Part shown: positions 2,430-17,000 of the stretch, piece after piece
How the letters are laid out: the number at the start of each line of letters is the position of its first letter
Position numbering within the stretch: the first letter of the stretch is position 1
From: Chromera velia
Taxonomy: Eukaryota > Sar > Chromeraceae
NCBI GenBank assembly: GCA_018398765.1
Contig: JAHBMJ010000138.1
Location: forward strand, 35,089-55,595
DNA length: 20,507 bases
Direction: 5' to 3'
The notes under the pieces: generated by a model
Database searches by the model: none
Seen by the model: only the letters and a program-made list of their open reading frames with translations
What the model was told of the DNA's origin: nothing
Translations under genes and position numbers: made by a program

Positions 2430-3829
2430 ATGAAGAAAAAGGACAAGGCAGCCAAGGGACCGAAACCAAAACCTGCAGAGGAGGAGGAGGATCTGGACTG
2501 GTTGCGTTCTTATGACGGGAATTGGTACGATTTGGATATCAGGGGTGTTCAAACCAGCAGGGAGGCATGCGAGGGAGAAGGAGAAGGACCACCCCTGTCA
2601 ATTTCCTTCTCGGGCCCTGCAGGTGTGAGGGACGCTGTGGACTCCCTCCTGCAGACAGCCAAGGAGAGACACGCAGAGAGGACAAAACAGTTCGGGAAAT
2701 TGGCCAATGAGGACACGGAGCAGCAGTTCGTGAGGAACTATGCGACTAAGGAGGGATCCACTCTGACTGATAAGGTGAGGTAAAGGTGCGGTAAATGGAT
2801 CTCCAGTGAAATGAAATTTGCGCCATCCGATAGAACGAGAGTGAAACAACTGACAGGTGAAATGACGCGATCAAGAAAGCGGTGCACTCCGACTGACAAG
2901 GTCAATTCATGCCCTAACCCATCTGTTCCAGCCGTCTCCAACGTTCCCCCACTCTTCAATAAAGCCAAATAGAAACCAAAAGAGCCTTTGTCCCCTGTAT
3001 GCAGGTGAATTCTCTGATCATTCTGGTACAGCAGTCTCCGATTTTCAACTCCTGGGCCCTGACGTCTCTGTTGAATTTATGCGGCAGGCTGAAGAGCAAC
3101 AGGGCCCAGCCGGTTCTCAACGCTCTGCACGATCTCTTCCTTCACCCCCTTTTGCCCGTCTCCAGAAAATTGCGTTTTTTTCATCAGCAGCCGCAGATCA
3201 AACAGGAAAGACTGGAGTCTCGGTTCAATGAGGAATTGAAGAAGTGGAAGGAGACGCACAGGAAGACCCACGTGAAGGCCAAGAAGAACAAAAACAAACC
3301 ACAGGAACGGATGACCTTGAACCTCTTTCTGGAAGAACGAACGGCAGTTGTGTGGTACTTTGAGGATCTCTTGAAAACTGCGTTTGCCGGGTTTGTGCAG
3401 GTCGGTGCGTCTGTCAGTGGGTCTGTCGATCAGTCGCACCACAGAAAAGAACGAAAGCCGCATTTCCTTCCGCCTGTTTGTTCTCTTCAAAAGTCGCCTC
3501 CAAGAAAAGAGGCACCTCTGTCGTGCTGCGGCATTTGTTTGCCTCTCTTGGTCTGTCTCTCCTTTTCCATTTAGTGATGGGCCTTTGGGTGTCTGTCTGA
3601 CGATCCTGTTCTCTACTCTTTTTTTTTCTGTGTCCTGCCTCCTACTTCTTCGTTTTTGTTCCTCAATTCCATTCATTCTCCCCCCTCCTCGTTTTTCCTT
3701 TTTGGCATCAAGATGGAGCTTCGAGGGGTTGAACTTTCCCCCTGCACATGCACAGAAGACTTTCTTGTTGTTTCCTGCGCCCAGGCTTCTTCTGGATGCA
3801 CTTTTTGGCGCGCGCAAGCGTGTGTGTGA

Positions 3830-3869
<40 letters not shown>

Positions 3870-4059
3870 CTGCTTGCCGCTGCCACTCTGGACCCTCTGG
3901 AAATTTTTCGCCGCCGCTCTCTGACGATCTGCTGCTCTCTTCTGAAGAGTAGACCTGAGCAGGAAGGGGCGCTGTTGGAGAGACTGGTGACCAGACTAGG
4001 CGACTCGGATAACAGGACCGCGTCGCTGGCGGCAATGTGCATCAAGGAGGTCAGTCAAG

Positions 4060-4090
<31 letters not shown>

Positions 4091-5910
4091 AGGCTTCAGC
4101 GTGTTTTGTGTGACTGGTCTTGTTGTATGTGCGCACCATTTTTGTGGCATGTCTGCATGTGTCTAGTCCCCTTTTTGTGGCTCTGTGCACGATAGAGGCC
4201 CGTGAGGTCATTCGATAGTTCACCTTTTCAGTCAGAAGGCGCGTGATGCAGTGAGACAGCCATGTCGTATGTATAACTATGACTATGACTATGGCGCGCC
4301 ATTGTTATCCGTATCCAGAGCTAACTGGATACTTCTAACGTTAGGCAGTGTTGCTATTTCCTAGGATGCGACGCTACACTGTCTGAGTCATGCAGTAGTA
4401 AGATTTTATTGAACAGACTCTGTGCAGGTAGGCCAAGCGGTGAAGCAAGCGGCTTTAATTTGTCTTGCAGAAGCTGTCTGGATATGTTTTGAAAAAATCT
4501 CTTTCCTTTGGTTTGACTCCGCAAAGTTCCTTAATTGTCATCGTCTTCTCTGATTTTTTTTTTTCTTGTCGTCGTCTTCTCTGATTTAGCTCGAGCTGAC
4601 TCTCCTCGACTTCTCTCTTCTCTATCCCCTTCCCTGTCCCCCCTCTGTGCAGGTGTTGGAGGAGCACCCGGCCATGGGTGTCGTAGTGGTGTCCTCCATC
4701 TCGGAGCTCGTGCAGAAGAGCATCATGCAGCTTAACGAAATGCCACCCCCCAGCAGGCACATGGGGGGGAGAGGGAGAGGGAGAGGTCGGGGCAGAGGAC
4801 GAGGCTCTAAGTTGAGGTTTGAGCAGCAGAAGGAAGAGGCAAAGCAGGCCGAGAGGGACAGGAGACGGGGGATGGAGAGGAGACGGGAGGGGGCATACAG
4901 AGGGCTCCTTCTGCTCTCGGAGCTCAAATTGAGGAGGTCAGCAATGTCGTCATGTTTTTTTGTGTTTGGATCGGAATGGTGCCACTCACAGATTCCTGAA
5001 CGATTGGATGCGAGACTCGTGATGGGAGGGAGGGAGAAGATCTGCATCTCTTTTCTCTCTCTGACTGCGTTCATCTTTCGTTTCCGCACATGAGAAGGGA
5101 AGGTCTTTGGGAGAACAGGAGACGAGAGAGAAAGAGAAGATCCTTGCTCGTATGCTTCAGGTCTCAAGACAAATCTTTCGGGGTTGTCTCTTTCTTTTCG
5201 TCTCTCTCTGGGCATATACGGGAACACAAAAGGAAGGAAGATTGCGTAACTTCTTGTGTCCTTTTCATGGGAGGGACCAATCGGATTCTTTCCCTTCTGT
5301 TGAATGTGCATGTATGTATGTATGTATGTATGTATGTATGTGCCTGTCCTTGCATCTGCCTGCGTTCATCCAGAGGACAGCCCGAGGTTGCAGAACGACT
5401 TGCCGACGCGTACCTCTCGGCCCTCGGGGTTCTCTTGGGGGGGGCTGCTGAGGGAGAGGGAGGGGAGGGGGGAGTGGCTGTTGAAAATGGGGGGGGAGGG
5501 GCAATGCACCACGGGGCGATCGAAAATGGTGGGTGGGACCATGCGATCGTCGATCTCTTTTTGCCCTTTCTTTTTTTCTGGAAAGGAAGCCCGTTCTTGG
5601 CTCCCCTCGCACGTACCCTCGTGTGCTACTCGATCAACGTCCTTTCTCTCTTTGCTTCTCCTGTCATTCTCTGCCAATTTTGTCTTCCTTCGTGTCTTCA
5701 ACCTTTGCTGCTCTGTCGGATGGACCCTTTCCCTTGTGCCGCCACGGCATCTTTTTCCTTCTTTCTTCCTTTCTGTGTCGTTCTCTTCTCTGCATGCCCT
5801 CCGGACCTGATACCATCATCTGGTCAAATGCAAAGAGAATGAATGCATTGTATTGCCCCGTGTGATTCTTTCTGTATTCTGCATCGGATACTCCAAATGC
5901 ACTTCTCCCG

Positions 5911-5947
<37 letters not shown>

Positions 5948-7469
5948 GCCTGCCTGTCTGTCTGTCTGTCTGTGTGTCTGTCTGTCTGTCTGTCCTTCCG
6001 TCTGTCTGTCCTTCCGTCTGTCTGTGTGTCTGTCTGTCTGTCTGTGTCTGTCTCTCCGTCTGTCTGTCCTTCTGTCTGTCTGTCTGTCTGTCAGGAGGCG
6101 TCGGTGAAGAGGGCAGAAGGAGAGGGCGAGGAAGGGGCCTATGGAGGGGCAGAGGGGGAAGGGGAAGAGGGGGCATGTTTGGTTTCTCTGCATCCTCCTC
6201 GGCTTGGACCTCTCAAAGGAAAAGTATGGACAAGAGATCGAAAGTGGGTCGGTCTTTTTTTGTTTGTTTGTTTGTTTGTCGTCAAACAATCAGACTCCAT
6301 TTTGTATCTCTGTCACATGTACACTGTCTCCTTCTTCCCCCTCCTCCGTATTCTCTCTCTGTTTTCCTGTCTCAAAAACAAAATTGAGTGCATACCCTTC
6401 ATCCTTCGCTGTCCACTCCCTCCTTCCTTCATCCCTCCCTGATTGCAGGCCAGCGGCATTTCAGAGAAGATGTTCGGAATTCTCCGGGCCCTCTTGTCAG
6501 GCCTCCACAGAGTCTTTCCTTATCTCCCAGACCCATCAGATGGCAAAGAGGAAGGGGAGAAAAAGGAAGGAGGGGAAGAGAACAAGAAGGATAAAGGGAG
6601 AGTGGCTCTTGCGACGAAATTGGAGAGCAGGGTCGACTCTCTCTTCAAGATGTGCCACTTGGTCCCCTCCCCTCCTCTGGTTATACTCTGTCTTCTTGTG
6701 CTCAAGAGACTTGCAAGCGCATACAGGTGTGTGTGTTCGGTCGACGTTGGACCGTGTGGCCTCCCTCTTATGAGGGCGTGTCGCAGTTTCTTTCGCATTG
6801 GGACGGCGGATGGGGGGAGACTTTATGAAGGGCGCTGAGAGTGGACAAAGAAGCATGTGTCGCACTTCTGTTCAAGAGAACACGCATGCCGGTTTCCCAT
6901 TTTTTCTCTTCTCTGCTGTCTGATGCGATCCTTTGTGATCTGATAATTACTTTTGGTCTTTTTTTGTCGTGTACTTCTTGATCCCGCTGGCACTCCTCGC
7001 TTTCTTTCCTGACTAGCGGTGGGCTTGATGGATGATGCACTTAGCCGCGCTTTCTTCAGTTGATTGATTCATGCAGCGGTTGACTTTTGACTCACCTCCC
7101 GTCCCGAGATTCAGTAGACATTCTTCTTTCTGCCTTTGCGATGGATGCAGTCTGAGCTCGGATCGGTTTCTCCGTCTCCTCTACGCACAGCTGGGCAGGG
7201 TGGATCTTTTCAGCGTGAGTTTTTTTTTTCAATTATTGTTATTTTTTTTTTTTTTTAAAAAGGGTGGATCCTTTTAGTGTGAGGTTTTTTTTTTTTTTAA
7301 AAAAAAAAAAGGTGGATCTTTTTAGTGTGATTTTTTTTGTTTTGTTTTTTAATGAGGGTGGATCTTCTCAGTGTGAGTTTTTGTTTTTCTTCTTTCTGAG
7401 TGATGGCAGGGCGTTGCCGGAGTGCTAGATCTGAATGGGACGACCGATCCGTTGCATCCATCGATGATG

Positions 7470-7502
<33 letters not shown>

Positions 7503-10500
7503 GCCCACTTTGTCTGAGTTGTCGTGATGTTCTTTTGTCTTTGTTGCTTTCTTTCTTTCTGTCTATTGTGTTCATGAAGAAAGGAAGGGAGAAGAAGAAA
7601 CAGATAGTCTGTCTGTCTGTCTGAGTTTTCCTTCCTTCCTTCCTTCCTTCCTTCACCTTGGAGGAAGGTACACACATACATCTTGTATCTGTTTGCGCCT
7701 AGGCCCTTTTGGGGTGTCAAAAGCGATCCGAAAAGCTGCGGATCGTGCTGCGTGCTGCTGCTTTCTATAAGGGCGTGCACTCGCGCAGAGAGAGAGAAGG
7801 AGAGAGGGGGAGGGAGAGAGACAGCGCCGTGGGCAAGGGAGACTGCTGCGTTTCTCCGTGTGTTCTTCAGGCAATTTGTTCTGATCTTCGCTTCGTTCAC
7901 TGCATGCAAGAAGCTTTTCTTTCCTCATTTTCGTGTTTCGTGCGTGCAGGCCCGCAACAGACATCAGCTTCTGAGTCTGGTCGAGCACACCCTGGAGGAG
8001 GGCGAAGAGGAGAGGCCGCCCAGGTGAGGCATGCAGGGCAGAAGAAGAAGAAAGGGTTGCGTTGCGTTGGGGCAGTGGGAGTTGGTACTCGGGGGGGCAG
8101 AAAGAAAGTGGGTCGGCAGGGAAAAAAAGGAGCGGGGCAGAAAGAAAAGCGTAAGAGGAGACAAGGGGGAACAGAAGGAAAAGCGTAGATGGGAAACAGA
8201 AAGAAAAGGCAGGGGCAGAAAGGAGGCAAAATATGGACAAGTGCAAAGAAACGGAACCGGGCAGAAGCACGCTTCGTCTCTTCCTTCTGTTTTGCGTCCT
8301 CAAAAAGAGAAGCGACACCGAAAGAGTGCGGGCAGGGCGGCCCGTTTGGCGACAGACAAGAACGAGTCTGGTGTGTTTCTGTGTCTAGATCATCTACTCT
8401 CCTTCCTGTTTTACTGCCCCTTCCCTTCCCTCTCCCACCTGATTCCTCCTCCCTGCCTGCAGAGTGTTTGCCCTTCTGCGGCGGCTCCTCGCGTCCGTGG
8501 CCCTCCACTGGGACTCTGCCGATTTGGAGGCCCATGGGTTGGAGACGCTGGGGGGGGCTCTGTGCTCGGGTCGTGTCAGACAGGCCGTGGCGTTGGACCT
8601 TGTCTCAAGGTCTGAGGGTGCGATTGTGATGGATGCAGAGGGGGAGGAGGAGCTTGGTAGGGGGGAGAGGGAGGAGGAGGAAGACGAAGAGGAGGGAGAG
8701 GGGAGAGAGGAGAAGAATCAACTCGCTCTGAAAGGATTCGACTGCAACAAGAGAGAGCCCATCTTCTCGAAGGTGAGTTGTTAAAGGATGAAATCGGTGT
8801 GAGGAGGAGTGTCCAAATGAATCCTTGGATGGATGGATGGATGGATGGATAGATAGATGGATCAGCAATAAGGGCCCAAAAAAGTGTCGGAATGCCCCGA
8901 GTGCACTGTTCGGGTGAATCGCTTGTACTTCCTGCGGAATTTGAAAGGATTCGTGTGAAAGAAAGGGATGAAAGGAGGGGTGCACACATAAATAAGTACT
9001 TGGTGTTACGCACCTGGAGGTTGTCGCTGTTTCGATCGTTCTTTGTGTCATTTTCCTTTCGGCCTGCCCTTCCAGTTGGTGTGCATGTGTGTACATTTAT
9101 GTACCTGTGCCCCCCCCCCCCCCCCCCCCCCNNNNNNNNNNNNNNNNNNNNNNNNNNNNNNNNNNNNNNNNNNNNNNCCCGCCTCCCTCTTCATGCAGGC
9201 TGACAGAACTCCCCTGTGGGAGCTGCACCTGCTGAGTTGCGACGTGCACCCGACGGTGGGTGAGGTTGCGTCCAGGCTGATAGAGGAGCCCTCAGTCGCA
9301 GAGTCTTTGCCTGGTAAGGCAGCGGGGCTGGCTCGTTTGGCGGTGGGGCAGCTGAAGGTATTGGAGCAACGTGCGGCGGCGGCAAAGGAAAAGGCGGAGA
9401 GACGACGGCAGGACGCGGAGGGGAAGGGGGAGAAGGCGGGTGGGGGGTCTCAAAGAGAAGAGAGGGAGAGGTTTGGAGTGGAGTTGAAAAAACTGGAGAC
9501 CTCAAAGGTTTGTTCTTCCCTCGAATTTTGCCTCCTGTGAATAGATTTGCCTCTTTGTTGCTTTGGAAAGGGAATCGGTACAAAACTGAACTGATCAATT
9601 GCTGTGGGGGGTTCCTCAGATTCAGCAGTATGTGGGTCGGTCGAAGAGAAGACGGGGGGGGCGAGACACGAAGAGAAGAAAAAACGAGGGCGTGGAAGAA
9701 AAGAGAGCACAGCGGGCACGCATACGTGCATTCTGATTATCTCGAATCCTCTATGTGTTTGTCAAAACAAACATACGTGATATTTTTCTTTTTGTTCTCT
9801 GCTTTTTCATCAAACAACAAGGGAGACAAGAGTTCTTTCGGCACTCATTTTTTCTTCCTTCCTTCCTTCTTTCCTTCCACAGATCCTCAACGCCCTCACA
9901 TACGCACCAGTCGAAGTGGACGTCGAGACTGAGGTAAGGCTGTCTGTCTCTCTCTCTCTGTCTCTCTGTTTCAAAAGAAAAAAAAAATCGTACAATCTGT
10001 CTGTTTGTTTCTTCCCATCTGTTTGCCTCTTAATCGCATTGATTTCCTGCAGGGCAGAGGCAGAGGGATCTTTTGATTGTCTTCCCGTCTTTGTCTGTCA
10101 TCCCGTTCATTAATTCTTATGATTTCCTCATCTCAGAATGTTGTGCCTTGCATATGACCGCGGTCTAGTCCCTTTGTCTCTGTGCATGCGTCTCTGTGTG
10201 CATGCTCCCTTTGTCTCTGTGCATGCGTCTCTGTGTGCATGCTCCTTTCTGGATTTGTGTACATGCAAAGTGAGTCTGGAGAGAGGGAGAGAGAGAGAGA
10301 GAGAGAGTGTGTGTGTGTGTGTGCAGGGCAAAAAAGCGGACGGCCAACGTGCGACCGTCTCGACGGAGGTGATCATGTCGGAAGGGTGTCTGTGGCCCTC
10401 CATGGCCGATTTCTTTCGGAAGGATCGGAAGGAAAAGGCGAAGGCGGGGGGGATGGGGGAGCAGGGCAAAGGGAAGCAGAAAAAAGAGAGTTTAGGCGGC

Positions 10501-13071
10501 AAGGGAAAGGGAACACCGGCTCTCTCAGAAACTCCAGGGGCCTTCATTGCAGGGGTCAAGGAGGCGAGGGCAAAGGCACGCAAAAGACTGCCCCCACATC
10601 TCCGGTTCTTCGCAGAGTTTTTTATGGTCTGTCAGCCTGCAGGGCCTTGCTTGTCTGTCTGTCTGTCTGTATGTATGTCTGTTTCTGTCAGAAGACACCA
10701 TCTTTTATACTCTTGTCTGAATTTTTTTGATCTTTGTTGCTTTTCCGAATCTTTTTCATCTTTGTTGCTTGTCCGAATCCTTTTCATCTTTGTTGCTTGT
10801 CCGAATCTTTTTCATTTTTGTTGCTTGTCCGAATCCTTTTCATCTTTGTTGCTTGTCCGAATCCTTTTCATCTTTGTTGCTTGTCCGAATCTTTTTCATC
10901 TTTGTTGCTTGTCCGAATCCTTTTCATCTTTGTTGCTTGTCCGAATCTTTTTCAGTTTTTTGTTGCTTGTCCGAATCCTTTTCATCTTTGTTGCTTGTCC
11001 GAATCCTTTTCATCTTTGTTGCTTGTCCGAATCCTTTTCAGTTTTGTTGCTTGTCCGAATCCTTTTCATTTTTGTTGCTTGTCCGAATCCTTTTCATCTT
11101 TGTTGCTTGTCCGAATCTTTTTCATTTTTGTTGCTTGACCGAATCTTTTTCATTTTTGTTGCTTGTCCGACCTGCTTCGTCTTCTTTCTTTATGGAACTT
11201 GCGTGATCTTTTTGTTGTCTGTTTCTCCGTTTCACTGGAGTTACGTTCTCTGATTGTCGCTGCCTTCTTCTCTCTCAACACCCCATCACCCCAGCTCTCT
11301 CTCCACTTTCCTCTTTCTGCCTTTGTCGCTCTCTGTCTCAAAGAAACCCCCTTCTCTCCATCTCAGTATCCGGCAGCGCTGCAAGAGAGCGAGAAGAGCG
11401 AACGAAATGCGTGCACAAAACTTTCCATGACGCCCTCACCTCACTTCCTGTGTATCCATCCTCTCCCCCCCCTTCTCTCGCTCTCCCTCTTCCTTCCTTC
11501 CTTCCTTCCTTCCTTCCTGTCAGGACCCGGCGGTGCTGGAGGAAAGAGAGATCAGAGAGGCAAAGCGACGAGACGAGAGCGGGATCGACAAGGCTGCCCT
11601 GGAGGAGATGTATGATGAGGAGCTAGGGGGGGAGGACGAGGACGAGGAAGCTGCGGAGAGAGATGTCAGTTCACTGCTTTGCATCGATCTGTTGTCATTT
11701 GTTTAAGAGAGATCCACATGCAGTCAACATAAGAAGCCGGACAGGGAAGGCAGAGGAAGATGGACGAGAAAGCTGCCGAGAGGGATGTGGAGGGGCGGAC
11801 TCACGGACATTTAATTCAGGCCGGCGCAGAAAGCAGCAACGGCCCCAAGAGAAATAACAGGACGGAGAAGAAATAAACTGTGAAGAAAAGACGATACCCC
11901 CCCCCCCCTTTCAATTTGTTTGCGTGTGTGTACGTGCGTACTTTTTGGGTCCTTAGTGTTGGTGTGTGTATGTGATCTGTGAGGGCATCAGATTCGCTCA
12001 CTTCCCTTCTTTTCCTCCCTTCCTCTTGTCTCTATTTCTCTTTCTTTGTCCTCTGCCGTCTCTCTCTGTGTCAGGCGGATGCCTTTTTTGAGTCTGTCCT
12101 GAGGGGCGAGATGGGAGGGGAGGGACTGTCAGACGAGGAGGAAGACGAAGACGAGGAAGGACTTTCTGAGGGGGAGGGGGGGGAAGACGGAGAGGACCAG
12201 TTTGGCAAATGGGACATGGGGCCTGAGGGAGACGGCGACTCAGAGGAGGGGGGGTCTGACTTTGAGGAAGAGGACGAGCTGCTTCCCTCAGGGATGGGTG
12301 AAGACGGAGACGAAGAAGAAGAAGGAGAGGATGAAGAGTTTGAGTTCGAGGAAGAGGATGAGGAGGAAGAGCAGACGGGAAGGGGCCGAGCTAAAAAGAG
12401 AAGCGCTGAACAAGGTGCGATGCTCGAAGATCTCTCTGAGTGCACGTGGCGTTTCATTTTTTCGTCCATTTGTGTTGTCTTGCAGTTCGCGTAAGCTTTC
12501 TCCTGAATTTTCAAATCAGCAAGCCAGTTTGAAGGCTTCTGTATCCATTATCCATTCGTATCTATACGTGTGGAAAGAAAAGGACTCGTTCGTTGGTGTG
12601 CCGTTCAGTGAATGGACGAGGACGAAAAAGGAAGAGAGGGGGAGTGACAGAGCAGAGGAACTGGAGAGAGAGAAAAAGGAAGATGGCGCATGTGTGTGAG
12701 CAGGCGTGGGTTCGTCCATTTTTGCGTTCGTGTTCAGGTGTCTGTGCGTGCTTGCGCGCGTGTTTGCATGATCTGCATACCTCTTCACTCTGGAGACTGG
12801 AATCGCCCAGGAAAACCTGCATGAGTCCATACATTCGTCTCTACGTTCATGGAAATCAAAAGGTCCATGCACATTTCTGTTGACCCGCGTACTTTGTGCA
12901 GCTGACAAAGAGAGAACTACGGGACGAGGCGCCATGGAGGAGGTCCGGGGGCCTTCGAAAAAGAAAAAACGAGAAAATAAAACAAAGCTGAAGGGGGCCC
13001 CCTCGTTTGCGTCAGCAAGTGATTACTTAGAGATGATTGAAAAGGACTTTGAAGATCAAGGAACCGACTGA
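2430..13071 (+). CDS. NOC1: NOC1/MAK21/CEBPZ-family 60S ribosome assembly factor
   Basis: In its family this nucleolar protein acts with NOC2 on early pre-60S particles and intranuclear pre-ribosome transport. Exon model: 2430-2774, 3005-3400, 3870-4049, 4653-4936, 5374-5528, 6095-6243, 6449-6726, 7151-7214, 7950-8023, 8463-8772, 9199-9507, 9883-9933, 10327-10630, 11367-11410, 11524-11664, 12075-12414, 12902-13071 (TGA). Every join is GT..AG and phase-compatible; the sum is 3594 nt, or 1197 residues, against just over 1000 for human or yeast homologues. Recognition rests on exon 1-2 [17 protein letters not shown], then [11 protein letters not shown]; exon 3 [19 protein letters not shown]; exon 7 [19 protein letters not shown]; exons 10-11 [30 protein letters not shown] (CBF/Mak21 domain core); the acidic C-terminal region; and a [14 protein letters not shown] ending. 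The start ATG follows an in-frame TGA at 2424. Exons 6, 13 and 14 are the least certain. The extra length comes from RG-rich, GE-rich and KE-rich insertions. Confidence 0.93.
2885..2904 (+). repeat. Duplicate of the exon 1 donor junction inside NOC1 intron 1
   Basis: CACTCCGACTGACAAGGTCA at 2885 matches CACTCTGACTGATAAGGTGA at 2759, which contains the real exon 1 donor (GT at 2775): 17 of 20 bases agree, with an offset of 126 nt. The copy keeps AAG/GT, so it is a potential decoy or alternative 5' splice site. Confidence 0.7.
3831..3869 (+). repeat. (GT)n microsatellite forming the intron 2 acceptor
   Basis: A run of GT dinucleotides continues straight into gtgcag and the exon 3 start at 3870. 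Confidence 0.9.
4062..4091 (+). repeat. (CAGG)n microsatellite in NOC1 intron 3
   Basis: About seven tandem CAGG/GGCA units lie just inside the exon 3 donor. The complementary strand is CCTG. Confidence 0.9.
4311..4332. other. Perfect 8-bp hairpin in NOC1 intron 3
   Basis: GTATCCAG and CTGGATAC flank a six-base loop. A palindrome CTAACGTTAG follows within a few bases. Intron 3 (4050-4652) lacks the pyrimidine bias of the other introns around this point. The hairpin may be chance or part of a structured intronic RNA; no clear snoRNA box pair was found. Confidence 0.35.
5302..5342 (+). repeat. (ATGT)n microsatellite in NOC1 intron 4
   Basis: Tandem ATGT units lie about 30 nt upstream of the exon 5 acceptor (5374). 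Confidence 0.9.
5910..6094 (+). repeat. (TCTG)n tetranucleotide array abutting the exon 6 acceptor
   Basis: About 185 bp of TCTG units with interruptions (ccttccg, tgtg, ctgcctgcc) runs directly into tcag at 6091-6094. Reading frames through it (SVCLSVCLS, and TDRQTDRQ on the reverse strand) are artefacts of the repeat. Confidence 0.9.
7198..7379 (+). repeat. Four-copy array of the exon 8/intron 8 donor junction
   Basis: The real junction GGGTGGATCTTTTCAGCGTG begins at 7198, with its donor GT at 7215. Degenerate copies begin at 7262, about 7310 and 7356, each followed by a T-rich run. The fourth copy, GGGTGGATCTTCTCAGTGTG, differs from the first at 2 of 20 positions and keeps GTGAGT. Copies are separated by poly-T and poly-A stretches. 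The extra copies lie inside intron 8 (7215-7949). Confidence 0.85.
7469..7655 (+). repeat. TCTG and CTTC microsatellites in NOC1 intron 8
   Basis: TCTG units lie at about 7469-7503 and 7605-7623, followed by CTTC units at about 7630-7655. All lie within intron 8. The rest of this intron is pyrimidine-rich with no exon support. Confidence 0.85.
8030..8275 (+). repeat. Degenerate purine repeat (GGGCAGAAAGAAA-like) in NOC1 intron 9
   Basis: The word gggcagaa(a)gaaa recurs about five or six times (near 8037, 8095, 8137, 8213 and 8259), and aaaagcgta occurs twice. This purine-rich stretch is opposite in strand bias to most other introns of the gene. Confidence 0.55.
8827..8862 (+). repeat. (GGAT)n microsatellite in NOC1 intron 10
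   Basis: About eight GGAT/AGAT units lie shortly after the exon 10 donor. Confidence 0.9.
9109..9180. other. Poly-C run interrupted by a 46-base N gap
   Basis: C runs from 9109 to 9131, N from 9132 to 9177, then C resumes. This is an assembly gap at a homopolymer inside intron 10. The exon 11 acceptor (atgcag, exon from 9199) is intact, so no coding sequence needs to be missing. Confidence 0.95.
10170..10243 (+). repeat. 37-bp exact tandem duplication in NOC1 intron 12
   Basis: The unit beginning ccctttgtctctgtgcatgc is present at 10170-10206 and again at 10207-10243. Confidence 0.85.
10279..10326 (+). repeat. (GA)n(GT)n microsatellite forming the exon 13 acceptor
   Basis: A GA run passes into a GT run and ends gtgcag immediately before exon 13 at 10327. 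Confidence 0.9.
10712..11173 (+). repeat. 28-bp minisatellite, about 16 units, in NOC1 intron 13
   Basis: The unit, read from gttgcttgtccgaatc then cttttcatcttt, repeats with few changes. A C/T variant (tcctttt or tcttttt) splits units into two types in a mixed order, and one unit is 2 bp longer (near 10950). Because 28 is not a multiple of 3 and no frame has a stop, all three forward frames stay open and give an 84-nt, 28-residue super-repeat ([20 protein letters not shown]). It lies between the exon 13 donor and the exon 14 acceptor, so the open frame is judged non-coding. Confidence 0.9.
11490..11523 (+). repeat. (CTTC)n microsatellite at the exon 15 acceptor
   Basis: CTTC units are followed by ctgtcag and exon 15 at 11524. 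A similar CTTC run precedes exon 12 (9856-9882). Confidence 0.85.
11763..11788 (+). repeat. Duplicate of the exon 15 donor junction inside NOC1 intron 15
   Basis: The 26 bases from 11763 match those from 11641 (exon 15 end plus donor GT at 11665) at 23 positions, with an offset of 122 nt. The shared core is AAGCTGC then GAGAG then GATGT. The copy retains GAT/GT, so it could act as an alternative donor. Confidence 0.75.
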
Positions 13072-15281: not shown

Positions 15282-17000
15282 TCACGATAAGCCCCGGCGT
15301 GGTTCGAGTGCCCTGAGGAGGCAAAGAGTCGCTGCAGCATCCTCAAGCGCAGAGTGAAAACATCTCTGTTGTATTCGCACACCAAGAAGTGCTGCAGTTG
15401 CACGTTCCAAAGAAATGGAGGCACAACGTTTCTTGTTCGATTCTTTGTTCCTGCTCTTTTCATCGTTTTTCAACGCGGACGCGCCAACAGAAAATTGGCA
15501 ATCCAGATCGTCTGCTTCCTCGGCGCAAAACTTCTGAAGCCTCTCACGCACATCCACACGCCTGTGGGAACCCACCGCCGTCTCCAGACCCAAAGCCTTC
15601 AGGTCCTGCACGAGGTCAAACCCAACGACAATCGGCCTCGCAGCACTCCCGACCTCTTCAAAAGAATGGTCCACTTCTTTCTTACAGTCTTCCATCAACA
15701 TTCTTCTGGCCTCTCTGGCGAGTCCCTGAAAGTCCCTAGACCGGGAGGACATCAACACACGACCACAAAGACTCACTATGGCAACCTCATCGCCCTCACA
15801 ATCCACACCCACAACATTGTCTCCCCCATATTGAGACAAAGAAAAGGCAGCGCTGCCCTTTTGACTCTCTTTCGTTTGACTTGCCCGACTTGCCTCCAAA
15901 ATCTCCTCAATAACTCTCTCTGTGGGGGTATCAAAATTGGGCTCTGAGTTTTCGACTGTCGGCGGTATCCCCAAAAGAGACCCTTTGGACAGCGAGGGGA
16001 CTAGAGAAGAATAATCACTCAAAAAGCTTGAGTCGCAATCTGAACTTTCAATCTCTGTGGAAGACCAGGAAGGAGAGGGCGAGACTCGTCTTGTATCGGA
16101 CTCACGCATGTACCGCAGGGGTGAGAGAGGCGTGCGGGCAGTGCGGAGCATTTTGAGAAGTGTGTCCGTCGCCTGCACACACACACACACACACACACGT
16201 ACTCACACACACACGCGCGCGCGCGCGAAAAAGGTTCTCATCACTTTTCTTGTCGACATTTTCAAAAAGCTCATACAGGATGTGCGCGGGCTGCATATTT
16301 GATGACTTCAAATGCAGAAAGAGTAACGAGGAGGAGAAAGAAACGAAGGAAAAGAAAAGGCAAGCACGTTGAGAAGGCAGAAATAACAGAGAAGAAAAAA
16401 GGGGCAGAGAGAGGGAGAGAGACATCAATTTTAACAAAGAGAGAAATCGACAAATCGAGTCTCTGATTCATCAATCCTGTCATCGAGCACTTGGAATGCA
16501 GCTGTCATTAAATTTTGTGCCATTCCACCTGTGAGGACATCAGAACGCAAGCGCAAAACACGTGAAACTCTTCTTCAAGCAACCCGAGTTGACCCACCCT
16601 TTCACCAGTCCACATGTCTGCGCGCTCCGGTAGCGCCTCTCCAAACACTCCGTTGTCCTCCACCACCCTGCCGAGGAGGTCTCTTTGAAGGGATCTGCGG
16701 GTCCTCCTAGGCTCCTTCAGACAGGGAGGACCTCCATCGGCACCCACCACCTTCTCGCCTCTACGTGCGATTCGGAAAGGGAAAATGGGGTCACGAAGAA
16801 ATCCAAATGAAAGGGGGAAGGTACAGAAAGCTAGGGGACAGAATGCATGAGACAAAGAAACAGCTCGGAAGAGGGAGAGCGAATCTAGATTTCACAAGGA
16901 CTCAGACATGAACAAAGTCTTCAGGGCACAGCACATGGGACATGTTAATTCAACTGCTCTCCTGGCAGGCAGATTTCCATATGCATTCACAAGCCGGGAT

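Follow-up and report, generated by a model that had tools for sequence, protein, structure and literature searches.

Duplication of sequence across a splice boundary has been described as a source of new introns. A potato gene gained an intron through a tandem duplication that spans one of its intron-exon boundaries (PMC4974935), and a tandem-duplication model of intron gain, in which an exonic AGGT is duplicated, has been reviewed (PMC3443670). Introners are reported to duplicate 3-9 bp of their target in some previously characterized families (PMC9860276) and to have direct repeats of 3-5 nt in Amoebophrya (PMC7789003). Direct repeats of 4-30 bp (mean 11.4) near intron splice sites have been ascribed to insertion and repair (PMC11782384). 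More than one donor per exon end is also a property of tandem alternative donors (PMC1779574, PMC2878309, PMC8055015), for which 2-12 nt between sites is given (PMC2878309).

The lengthening of an intron and the origin of spare splice sites are rarely caught in the act. Here, we describe a 20,507-nt stretch of Chromera velia DNA (the window; C138:35089-55595 of a 177.8-Mb assembly), in which the donor junction of one exon is present in four direct, tandem copies. As in the potato gene (PMC4974935), the duplication spans a splice boundary and includes copies of the splice signal, and differences between the copies argue against assembly error; in potato, however, the acceptor side was duplicated, a new intron resulted and the case has RNA support and relatives, whereas the array described here concerns the donor side, in four copies, and shows no new intron. 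In the reviewed model (PMC3443670), as in the array, the duplicated segment contains splice-like sequence, but there an exonic AGGT yields a new intron, while here an existing junction was copied and an existing intron lengthened. The repeats surveyed in PMC11782384 emerge from comparison of an intron's two ends, whereas the array consists of copies of a single junction, all on the same side. The donors of the array lie 46-64 nt apart and stem from sequence duplication, as against the 2-12 nt of tandem donors (PMC2878309).

The gene and its exon 8

The gene around the array encodes a MAK21/NOC1/CEBPZ-type ribosome biogenesis factor, as judged from homology of the spliced product. The product of exons 7-11 matches the Pfam CBF family (PF03914) with an E-value of 2.7e-16 and yeast MAK21 (8e5t) with an E-value of 1.3e-4 for the whole match; a Pfam search at 0.001 with the product of exons 1-4 gave no match. 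Eleven exons were placed in the gene. Exon 8 keeps the name given in an earlier, sequence-only reading, and the exons between 4936 and 6449 are provisional. Exon 8 (64 nt, 7151-7214, forward strand) follows the acceptor GATGCAG/TCTGAG and is supported by the CBF and yeast MAK21 matches of the spliced product. Intron 8 occupies 7215-7949 on the same strand, between the donor at 7215 and the acceptor GTGCAG/GCCCGC at 7950, and exon 9 (7950-8023, forward strand) was placed by that acceptor and the yeast MAK21 alignment.

Protein homology favors 7215 as the working donor. Splicing from 7215 gives a CBF score of 61 bits, versus 52 bits from an in-frame, donor-like GT at 7200, and the exon 8/9 join is gapless in the alignment to yeast MAK21 (this stretch alone is weak, at 12.6 bits with an i-Evalue of 0.67). 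An exon 8 end at 7200 was rejected on the 9-bit drop in Pfam score, and the end at 7214 put forward in the sequence-only reading is supported. Position 7215 is presumably also the donor used in RNA. The base at donor position -1 is C in exon 8, versus G in all 10 of the other donors assigned in the gene. Across the gene (window 2430-10626), TGCAG closes 9 of the 10 assigned acceptors, and GTC, in place of the common GTRAGT, opens 4 of the 11 donors.

Four copies of the exon 8 donor junction

The repeated unit of 25 nt consists of the final 18 nt of exon 8 (7197-7214) and 7 nt of intron 8, and its direct copies start at 7197, 7261, 7309 and 7355 on the forward strand. Copy 1 (7197-7221) contains the exon end and the donor GTGAGT favored by homology, with its GT at 7215. 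Copy 2 (7261-7285; AGT/GTGAGG, GT at 7279) and copy 3 (7309-7333; AGT/GTGATT, GT at 7327) are each identical to copy 1 at 21 of 25 positions, and copy 4 (7355-7379; AGT/GTGAGT, GT at 7373) at 23 of 25. The AGT of the intronic copies versus the AGC of the exon is a synonymous difference. Successive GT dinucleotides are spaced by 64, 48 and 46 nt. The sequence-only reading had described the exon 8 end as recurring four times in a row in steps of 46-64 nt, with an almost identical fourth copy and its GTGAGT intact, and all of this agrees with the measurements. It had also extended the GTGAG to all three intronic copies, which is correct for copies 2 and 4 only, since the donor of copy 3 is altered to GTGATT; of the positions it gave, 7215, 7279 and 7373 stand, and the third is 7327 rather than about 7326.

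The copies are separated by three unlike spacers. The first (7222-7260) is T-rich and runs into T15A5 at 7242-7261, the second (7286-7308) is a T run followed by an A run, found as an inverted repeat (T14A12 at 7285-7310), and the third (7334-7354) is T-rich with no foldback. The lengths of these T/A runs may be uncertain.

A 22-nt version of the unit, allowing up to 3 mismatches, finds 7198-7219, 7262-7283, 7310-7331 and 7356-7377 as its sole four matches in the window and has no match in 100 dinucleotide shuffles; the array is also reported by Tandem Repeats Finder (TRF). A genome-wide search with this degenerate 22-nt pattern gave 12 matches, namely the four of the array and eight scattered singletons with 2-3 mismatches, and the reversed control has six. 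We rejected the idea that the repeated unit is a dispersed element, given eight outside singletons versus six for the reversed control. The best outside match (C969, L005), read by eye, is a single copy and looks like intronic sequence from an unrelated gene on the opposite strand. Searches of the array by the junction pattern and by TATGAAAAT identified no insert common to many loci, as an introner would be; the array consists of direct tandem copies of a single junction, with both its exonic and its intronic part.

Duplicated splice junctions elsewhere in the genome

Ten further loci in the same genome were read as having a duplicated junction, eight involving acceptors (L029, L035, L036, L053, L073, L089, L092 and L098) and two involving donors (L101 and L103). 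Exon borders at these loci were judged by eye unless a Pfam or PDB match is given. Seven of the ten contain the foldback core described in the next section, five of those seven having been fetched for holding it.

Five of the acceptor loci came from a scan for clusters of direct repeats (22 nt with 20 or more matches, spaced by 22-150 nt, low complexity excluded) over 286,319 nt, comprising the window and 79 loci, some overlapping, that had been selected by Pfam families, pattern or DNA hits (L001-L004, L060 and L084 were omitted as repeats of other loci). The scan gave 15 clusters, of which six were read as spanning a junction: the window donor and the acceptors of L029, L035, L036, L053 and L073. 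By a rough binomial calculation, 6 of 15 has a P of 0.002, 0.017, 0.06, 0.15 or 0.28 at chance fractions of 10, 15, 20, 25 or 30%, and the window gene, with its 11 placed exons, gives a chance fraction of 0.17 to 0.28 when clusters are 64 to 110 nt long. Enrichment of duplications at splice junctions is thus not firm. A stricter scan of the zones around Pfam-matched exons (74 matches) returned 12 array rows from eight loci, none of which was counted as a junction duplication.

Where homology is usable (L035, L036 and L053), the protein match agrees with the exon that follows the exon-proximal copy. L035, a DDX6/DHH1 gene, has a 41-nt perfect tandem duplication across an exon's acceptor (144-227) that includes the exon start; no insert lies between the copies, and use of the upstream acceptor copy would shift the frame. 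The first residue of the L035 homology query runs into the acceptor and is provisional. In L036, the exon starts a DEAD domain (E-value 2.3e-15 for the fragment alone versus Pfam), and in L053, inclusion of the exon behind the exon-proximal acceptor raises the AAA score from 76.4 to 102.8 bits. The L029 fragment alone has a weak DEAD match (18.5 bits, E-value 0.0018), under the 26-bit curated cut-off. Among the eight fragments scanned alone against Pfam at 0.1, those of L053, L073, L103, L096, L089 and L092 had no match.

For L073, L089, L092, L098, L101 and L103, the reading as junction duplications rests on open frames and splice consensus. We take L092, L098 and L089 (four copies) to be acceptor cases and L101 and L103 to be donor cases. 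L101 has an apparent donor, TTCACACAA/GTGAGT, three times at intervals of 111 nt (oriented positions 36, 147 and 258) with foldback inserts between, and L103 has two copies of the apparent donor GTCCTCAG/GTGGG. These two loci are alike in plan to the window array, but the latter lacks TATGAAAAT and has T/A runs as spacers. The locus nearest in kind to the window array is L029, in which a T-rich insert separates two copies of an acceptor junction. Junctions, both donors and acceptors, in two to four tandem copies offer a natural series for measuring the choice that the spliceosome makes between nearly identical sites, and the same series lets the decay of decoy splice sites be measured. Of L027, L040 and L079, from the stricter scan and inspected individually, L027 and L079 have apparent donors that continue into short GGTG-type repeats (GTGGGTGGGTGGG and TCGGTGAGTGGGTGGG, respectively).

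A foldback core flanked by long direct repeats

In L036 and L073, a short insert lies between the copies of the junction; its ends are inverted and the two loci have a common core, AAAAGAATTNTGTATGAAAAT. Allowing up to 2 mismatches, this core occurs at 1,326 places in the genome (676 forward and 650 reverse), while the core read backwards, as a control, occurs at 0 and 1 places. The core family is, as for introners, an insert common to many loci. Several cores lie in tandem at 66-129 nt, among the 100 places listed. We fetched 20 short core contexts (L086-L105), five chosen for being tandem and 15 as single hits; L093 and L094, both included, are near copies of each other. Each of the five tandem contexts has three or four core copies. 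When the two flanks of the core were aligned, 10 of the 15 single-hit contexts beat all 200 letter shuffles of one flank, and in the other five the score was reached by 1 to 67 of 200 shuffles. The flanks of L036 and L073, which were found through their repeats and lie outside the 15, were matched by 0 of 200 shuffles. L100 and L101 hold further, diverged units, so their flank alignments include insert sequence; these two apart, the clear host direct repeats extend over 16 to 62 aligned columns.

The core family resembles introners (PMC9860276, PMC7789003) in that its repeated inserts are short, contain inverted repeats, lie next to splice sites and are flanked by direct repeats of the target. 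Its clear repeats of 16-62 nt are longer than the ranges given for introners in these two reports, and in part exceed the 4-30 bp of the survey of intron ends (PMC11782384); the window array has no such insert. The junction cases of the core family that we read are at existing splice sites, copied or moved, and no whole intron created by a core insert was identified among them. Within the literature covered (titles and abstract openings, with few subscription journals), we found no description of such an array or of splice-junction inserts with direct repeats of this length. If the link of the duplicated junctions to a short foldback repeat with long host direct repeats holds, the known range of introner-like insertion would be extended.

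We speculated that these loci reflect an ongoing process in the genome, in which short foldback inserts arrive at or beside splice sites, produce unusually long target duplications (16-62 nt) that bring the site with them, and then multiply as units in tandem. We regard this as tentative, and a single process behind both the core-bearing loci and the window array is similarly doubtful: the array has no core and its spacers are T/A runs, so that a common origin has to be inferred. If the junction-copying process is real, introns would grow from their ends without harm to the protein, each step adding a spare splice site, and the insert of the window array would be, or would have decayed to, a T/A foldback.

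Origin of the donor array

We consider it likely that the array arose when the junction of exon 8 and intron 8 was duplicated locally and in tandem, a change that lengthened the intron and was near neutral; of the readings considered, a harmless route of intron growth is the most likely. A segment spanning the junction would have been duplicated in tandem, repeatedly, up to four copies. Copy 1 would have remained attached to the exon, where it supplies the donor at 7215, and copies 2-4 would have landed inside intron 8, adding about 158 nt and leaving decoy donors subject to mutational decay. Since each duplicated segment includes its own splice site, the coding sequence would stay intact and the change would be close to neutral. 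The sequence-only reading had offered intron growth by tandem duplication as one of two possibilities, and it is now the better supported, because the array is made of direct, tandem copies and the genome contains comparable cases, which may have arisen by the same process. Tandem growth is further supported by tandem arrays in other apparent introns of this gene, described below, and by 63 TRF rows with a period of 15 or more in the fetched loci (288,165 nt searched, with overlapping rows and overlapping loci counted).

A possible but rather unlikely origin is insertion, in which a short T/A foldback inserted beside the splice site, leaving a duplicate of the target, with the junction in it, on either side, and the unit of junction and insert then multiplied in tandem. 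The same scheme is visible at loci with the 1,326-copy core, in the host repeats that beat every shuffle in 10 of the 15 single-hit contexts, in the tandem units of three or four cores in L086-L090 (chosen for being tandem), and in L101 and L103, read as donor cases. T15A5 and T14A12 in the window spacers and the T-rich insert of L029 are likewise consistent with it. However, TATGAAAAT has no match in the window, the spacers are plain T/A runs and the third has no foldback, and the flank alignments of 5 of the 15 contexts were reached by 1 to 67 of 200 shuffles. Slippage or unequal exchange accounts for the array with no element needed.

The other possibility raised in the sequence-only reading was that the copies are competing donors and a site of alternative splicing. 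In its functional form, the extra donors would conditionally produce nonsense-containing transcripts that tune the level of MAK21, as a poison extension, and we consider this improbable. A simple count of U1 pairing gives 6.0, 5.0, 5.0 and 6.0 for copies 1-4, compared with 5 to 7.5 for the other 10 donors assigned in the gene; a GT at 7312 within copy 3 also scores 6.0. Copy 4, which equals copy 1 in this count and has GTGAGT, could in principle compete with it, and a decoy might be used, because the exon 8 donor, with C in place of G, is weak at -1. However, when the donor at 7215 is skipped, translation onward from 7214 meets the first in-frame stop, TAG, at 7275-7277 (forward strand), within copy 2. 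Splicing from 7279, 7327 or 7373 would extend the exon by 64, 112 or 158 nt, each time retaining this stop and shifting the frame, which makes productive alternative splicing from any of these donors unlikely. Their use would give a truncated transcript, probably targeted by nonsense-mediated decay (NMD), and no protein variant. The altered donor of copy 3 also speaks against function. The predicted fold of the array region is no more stable than that of shuffles (z 0.09), and RNA structure hiding the donors was rejected on this result.

That the array is an assembly artefact is very improbable. Long T/A runs assemble poorly and the contig has a run of N at about 9132-9177, but a simple assembly duplication would not readily explain copies that depart from copy 1 at 2-4 of 25 positions, or spacers of unequal length, and the locus has a single full-length match in the assembly. 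Least credible is a nascent microexon in copy 3 (AAG/GTGGATCTTTTTAGT/GTGATT, 7312-7326). On a reading of the sequence, this exon would be in frame and would encode VDLFS a second time, but it would have only 15 nt, its flanking signals are poor and the upstream intron required would be short (<100 nt).

Other features of the window

No Rfam family reached its gathering score in the window. A search for the plastid marker psbA (PF00124) gave no match. A genome-wide search for the CBF/Mak21 domain gave a sole match at C2085:9875-10219 (L083, 46.9 bits); the MAK21-type gene of the window is missing from it, probably as a result of the domain being divided among exons. An open frame of 304 amino acids at 15282-16196 on the reverse strand presumably resembles a 3'-5' exonuclease, with no match in Pfam at 0.001. 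Intron 8 also contains, separate from the donor array and adjoining TGTC microsatellites, a dispersed repeat of about 123 nt (7501-7623; DNA similarity search), with at least 47 matches beyond the window of about 115 nt or longer at 85-98% identity; this count is a lower bound, from 141 match rows with 40 of 1,029 candidates scored. The assembly gap at about 9132-9177 lies within the MAK21-type gene and follows a C homopolymer. Further tandem repeats lie in apparent introns of the same gene, namely a 37-nt unit present twice at 10169-10245 and a 28-nt unit present 16 times at 10712-11170.
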